NCBI RefSeq assembly: GCF_001306175.1 | Contig: NZ_LGKN01000004.1 | Span: forward strand, 310,001 to 374,000 | Direction of reading: 5' to 3' | DNA: 64,000 nucleotides | Source: Ardenticatena maritima | GTDB lineage: Bacteria > Chloroflexota > Anaerolineae > Ardenticatenales > Ardenticatenaceae | Shown: piece by piece, positions 1,832-2,404 of the stretch | Layout: each line of letters opens with the position of its first letter | Numbering within the stretch: position 1 is the first letter of the stretch | Position numbers and translations under genes: made by a program | Notes under the pieces: generated by a model | What the model was told of the DNA's origin: nothing | The model's database searches: none | The model's input: only the letters and a program-made list of their open reading frames with translations

Positions 1832-2404
1832 ATGACCAGAAAAGCCTGGATTGAGATAATTCCCATTGAAGAAGCCGACGAACGCCTGGCGGCGGTGTAC
1901 GCCCAATGCGCCGACCCGCAAACCGGTGAGCCGGCGCATATCATGGCGATTCACAGCCTCAACCCCCAATCCATGCTCGACCACCGCAGCCTCTACAAAA
2001 CACTCATGTATGGGCGTTCTCCCCTGCGCCGCGCCCAGCGTGAGATGATTGCACTGGTGGTGTCAGCCGCCAACCACTGCAAGTACTGAATGACCCACCA
2101 CGGAGCGGCGCTCCGTCGGCTTGTGAAAGATGAAACGCTGGTGCGCCAGTTGGCTGACGATTACACCCAGGCGCCCCTTTCGCCTGCCGAGCGTGCCATG
2201 CTCGATTATGCTGTGAAACTTACGCGCACGCCCTGGGCGGTGGATGAAACCGATATTGCCGCCCTGCGCAACGTCGGTTGGGACGACCGCGCCATTCTCG
2301 ACATCGCGCAAATCACCGCCTACTTCAATTATGTCAACAGATTGGCGGAAGGGTTGGGGATTGTGCTCGAAGACTACTGGCAAGAGGATGACATTCTGGA
2401 ATGA
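1832..2404 (+). CDS. AhpD-like peroxidase-related protein, candidate selenoprotein (CxxU)
   Basis: Two ORFs in the same frame are separated only by TGA at 2087-2089. Read through, they give one 190-residue protein of the AhpD/carboxymuconolactone-decarboxylase superfamily (peroxidase-related branch). The family's redox motif is CxxC followed by HH, as in CxYCxxHHGxAL. Here the sequence reads NHCKY-TGA-MTHHGAAL, so TGA sits exactly at the second, resolving/peroxidatic cysteine (residue 86) and both flanks are conserved. An internal ATG follows the TGA directly, so gene callers will see two genes. A 7-bp hairpin lies at bacterial-SECIS distance. The reading preferred here is CxxU with selenocysteine; the alternative is a nonsense mutation TGC/TGT to TGA. 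No sel genes lie in the window. The start ATG follows a weak AGGGTGAAACACG site. Confidence 0.7.
2100..2116 (+). promoter_or_regulatory. Candidate bacterial SECIS hairpin
   Basis: ACGGAGC (2100-2106) pairs perfectly with GCTCCGT (2110-2116) around the loop GGC. The loop starts 17 bases after the TGA at 2087-2089 and its first two bases are G. Known bacterial SECIS elements are short stem-loops lying roughly 16-37 bases after UGA with a G at the start of the loop. The hairpin is inside the reading frame, as bacterial SECIS elements are. It could also be chance in GC-rich coding DNA. Confidence 0.55.

Follow-up and report, generated by a model that had tools for sequence, protein, structure and literature searches.

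AhpD-like selenoproteins with a CXXU motif have been known since 2005, when 27 sequences assigned to COG2128 were described in Sargasso Sea data (PMC1088965), and in the GOS analysis of 2008 the group named 'AhpD-like 1' was the fourth largest family, with 299 sequences (PMC2398784). Current reviews list TIGR01926 or COG2128 as CxxU (PMC13188914, Table 1; PMC9312934), and AhpD-like CxxU proteins are presented in a 2026 review as predicted, without experimental verification (PMC13188914). All the AhpD-like/CMD selenoprotein families in these sources are CxxU (PMC1088965, PMC2398784, PMC13188914), save one fusion with UxxG plus CxxU, whose UxxG is taken to belong to the arsenite methyltransferase part; the statement in the earlier note that AhpD-like selenoproteins are mostly UxxC was therefore wrong. 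Among the cysteine-containing proteins, the proton relay of Mycobacterium tuberculosis AhpD is formed by Glu118, Cys130, His132, Cys133 and His137, and that of PA0269 by Glu36, Cys48, Tyr50, Cys51 and His55 (PMC3141380).

In the window, which is the whole 64,000-nucleotide stretch of Ardenticatena maritima DNA analysed, open reading frame inspection revealed a single 190-codon gene at positions 1832-2404, broken only by a TGA at 2087-2089; this gene, its codons, the Shine-Dalgarno-like stretch and the putative SECIS hairpin located below lie on the forward strand. From the ATG at 1832 the frame runs through 85 codons to this TGA and then through 104 codons to a second TGA at 2402-2404, and the read-through protein has 190 residues (about 21 kDa) and contains ...AANHCKY-U-MTHHGAALRR.... 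In a profile search this protein matched the peroxidase-related model TIGR01926 over residues 6-178 (158.9 bits, cut-off 81.8), with the match running across the TGA, and Pfam CMD was also matched. As the earlier note had proposed, this is an AhpD-like gene interrupted by TGA at its redox cysteine: the codon stands in for the second cysteine of the CxxC motif, giving C83-K-Y-U86 with selenocysteine as residue 86. The translation, the TIGR01926 match and the conservation in six genomes support the annotation of an AhpD-like selenoprotein gene, and it is concluded with very high confidence that this is one AhpD-like redox gene in which the UGA of codon 86 is decoded as selenocysteine.

The ATG is preceded by a stretch (1817-1831) that reads as Shine-Dalgarno-like, AGGGTGAA. 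Further upstream, between the preceding gene (stop codon at 1743-1745) and the ATG, there is a strong hairpin followed by a T-run (1753-1804, with 14-bp arms at 1753-1766 and 1785-1798), leaving about 27 nt for a promoter. An equivalent hairpin made of other bases is found at the same place before the gene in a locus of the same genus (L025). This element may terminate transcription of the upstream gene or act as a leader attenuator for the selenoprotein gene.

With the AhpD-like COG2128/TIGR01926 CxxU family the window gene shares the family model, the position of selenocysteine and, putatively, a hairpin after the UGA, and only the host lineage differs. The best solved-structure matches, 3C1L, 2PFX and 6K40, are AhpD-like proteins with full-length homology to the window protein that have in common with it the CxxC-xxxH core and the relay glutamate and histidine, but the printed alignments place a cysteine where the window gene has TGA. 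Overall similarity to M. tuberculosis AhpD is weak (TIGR00777, 19 bits, cut-off 191.95); both proteins nevertheless present the Glu...CxxC...His pattern at the same spacing, E118/C130/C133/H137 corresponding to E71/C83/U86/H90, with a tyrosine at the His132 position and selenocysteine in place of Cys133 in the window protein. The AhpD superfamily also includes two models named as including selenoproteins, NF041238 (AhpD_rel_CFYUT) and NF053654 (YciW-related); the window protein is a member of neither, since its scores of 59.4 and 33 bits are far below the respective cut-offs of 175 and 310. The existence of such '(seleno)protein' AhpD models in NCBIfam means that the splitting of the gene by standard annotation, expected in the earlier note, is no longer a given.

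Within the order, the gene is present in six of seven genomes, including that of the window, and all six carry TGA at the same codon, so this is not a chance event. The proteins of the five other members are 65-87% identical to the window protein. An Ardenticatena sp. MAG encodes an 87% identical protein. At the phylum level a homologue was found in 177 of 400 genomes, and an alignment of 35 non-redundant homologous loci from across the Chloroflexota shows only TGA (21 loci) or TGC/TGT (14 loci) in the selenocysteine column, with no TAA, TAG or other residue in any of the 35. The TGA is always in frame and in the same column in the 21 loci, and comparison with the cysteine orthologues, as suggested beforehand, pairs it with the TGC/TGT of the second CxxC cysteine in 14 of 35 sequences. 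A TAG is found in the frame of one locus (L034), close to the C-terminal end, and is taken to be its normal stop. The partner cysteine C83 (codon 2078-2080) and H90 (2099-2101), the equivalent of His137 in the AhpD proton relay (PMC3141380), are invariant in the 35 homologues, and E71 (2042-2044), the equivalent of Glu118 in the same relay (PMC3141380), is Glu in 34 and Asp in one. The closest pair of sequences has dN/dS values of 0.094 before the TGA (85 codons) and 0.091 after it (104 codons), in agreement with the earlier statement that both flanks were uneroded, and in all other pairs both halves show pN far lower than pS, with pS near saturation in many of them. Purifying selection acts alike on both sides of the TGA, which excludes a decaying second half. 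Three Chloroflexota genomes (G148, G391 and G238) carry two TGA-containing AhpD-like paralogues each, and no relatives were found in viral contigs.

A putative bacterial SECIS hairpin follows the TGA at 2100-2116, with a stem of seven pairs (2100-2106 with 2110-2116) and a 3-nt loop (2107-2109), weakly extended to 2098-2119; counted from the T of the TGA it spans +14 to +30. The fold of the window sequence alone is no better than that of shuffled sequences (z about -1). Pairing was also scored across homologues in the register 14-30, 15-29, 16-28, 17-27, 18-26 and 19-25, against a null in which synonymous codons were redrawn from the same gene. The 21 selenocysteine genes have 99 in-register pairs, compared with 72.9 expected (sd 3.6), and 0 of 5000 redraws reach 99, a figure that is not a probability because the window sequence itself supplied the stem and because the genes share ancestry, a kinship that inflates the pooled count. 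By contrast, the 14 cysteine genes show 34 pairs, with 34.4 expected. Hairpin pairing 14-30 nt past the TGA thus exceeds the amino-acid requirement in the selenocysteine genes but not in the cysteine genes, which is what a SECIS predicts, and the in-register stem is absent from some of the selenocysteine homologues. The Rfam model SECIS_1 gave no match in the genome of the window, a silence that is uninformative because none was obtained in 14 control genomes either.

The earlier note had taken the absence of all sel genes as grounds for abandoning a selenoprotein, and the genome of the window (3.56 Mb, 98.6% complete) has all of them: profile searches detected selA (561 bits), selB (355 bits) and selD (367 bits), together with a tRNA-Sec (70 bits) whose anticodon is UCA, and selA, selB and the tRNA-Sec(UCA) are intact. 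The selD gene is also interrupted in frame by a TGA, at the position where SelD usually carries selenocysteine (LVACAG-U-ASKVG, L018:1531-1533). A near-perfect hairpin, similar to that of the AhpD-like gene, lies downstream of this TGA at about +11 to +28, and selD is likely a second selenoprotein gene, so the genome would encode at least two likely selenoproteins. No TGA or other stop interrupts the best formate dehydrogenase alpha match of this genome. Among the matches listed in the draw of 400 genomes of the phylum, selA was found in 66 of the 70 genomes with a TGA homologue and in 41 of the 49 whose homologues are all free of stops (Fisher P 0.07), a co-occurrence of little help because selA is present in 80% of the draw. 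The four TGA-bearing genomes without a selA match are all draft assemblies in 220-890 contigs. Completeness is 76-84% in three of them and 95% in the fourth, G101, where the absence is probably an assembly gap, because selA is found in further members of its genus. The sel genes, the conservation of the TGA, the purifying selection downstream of it and the selenocysteine-specific hairpin signal all support the CxxU selenoprotein first read from the sequence.

Three other explanations of the TGA have been considered. Since one base change takes TGC or TGT to TGA, it could be a random nonsense mutation in a pseudogene, or a miscalled cysteine codon at 2087-2089. This is extremely improbable when the codon is also TGA in the five remaining members of the order that have the gene and at 15 more loci of the phylum, never replaced by TAA or TAG, and when the codons beyond it are under purifying selection; TGA conservation has already refuted it. 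Synthesis of two chains, by termination and re-initiation at TGAATG, is suggested by the ATG immediately 3' of the TGA in the window gene and in those most closely related to it, but only seven of the 21 TGA loci have ATG at that codon, the others having CTG, ATC, ATA, ACG, ACA, ACT, GTT, GTG or GCC, a set that includes several non-start codons. The invariable location of the TGA at the catalytic cysteine position, within a two-helix active-site motif that splitting would cut, makes this possibility equally negligible. Finally, UGA reassignment is known in some bacteria, a precedent for reading the codon as another amino acid, such as Trp or Cys, by way of an altered genetic code or a suppressor. 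This is only marginally less improbable than the other two, considering that the genome keeps a full selenocysteine system, that the normal stop of the gene is itself a TGA (2402-2404) and that cysteine is the only aligned residue in the homologues. With near certainty, the TGA-split gene encodes a single complete enzyme of antioxidant type, with the TGA read as selenocysteine.

In this selenocysteine enzyme, insertion would take place at codon 86 itself, with the UGA decoded by SelB and tRNA-Sec, aided by the hairpin just downstream. The predicted fold, for which the solved cysteine homologues serve as a guide, is all-helical and AhpD-like, with Sec86 and Cys83 forming the CxxU redox pair on the helix hairpin conserved in AhpD, and the alignment places E71, C83, Y85, U86 and H90 at the spacing of the AhpD relay. 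E71 and H90 would provide the proton relay, together with Y85, which takes the place of AhpD His132. The selenolate at residue 86 would most likely attack a peroxide or an oxidised partner, Cys83 would resolve the oxidised selenocysteine as a selenenylsulfide, and a lipoyl, thioredoxin or low-molecular-weight-thiol donor would reduce the latter. The protein is thus most likely an AhpD-type thiol/selenol reductase or peroxidase, presumably cycling via an S-Se bond. A competing view, which concerns this chemistry and not selenocysteine insertion, is that the protein is chiefly an adaptor, passing electrons to a peroxiredoxin or OsmC/Ohr protein, and is not a peroxidase itself. The AhpD proteins of M. 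tuberculosis and C. glutamicum are reductants (PMC8945050; PMC3141380), but PA0269 has weak peroxidase activity, a peroxidase role has been considered for DR_1765 (PMC8945050; PMC3141380), and no partner gene was found among the ORFs adjoining the AhpD-like gene, which leaves the adaptor role at slightly under an even chance. The window gene is the sole CMD-domain match in a search of its genome. That the selenocysteine form, as the only AhpD-like gene of the genome, acts in this Chloroflexota order as a self-sufficient, efficient peroxidase and not as the reductant for AhpC is a tentative and rather unlikely proposal.

The family and its motif are already in reviews and NCBI models, and the locus is a correct detection of a kind of selenoprotein known since 2005 and a solid new case of it. 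No selenoprotein of Ardenticatena was found named in the literature. The present analysis corrects a split-gene reading and documents the use of selenocysteine in an Ardenticatena-like lineage, and since AhpD-like CxxU proteins are listed only as predicted, a cultivable host would allow a biochemical test.
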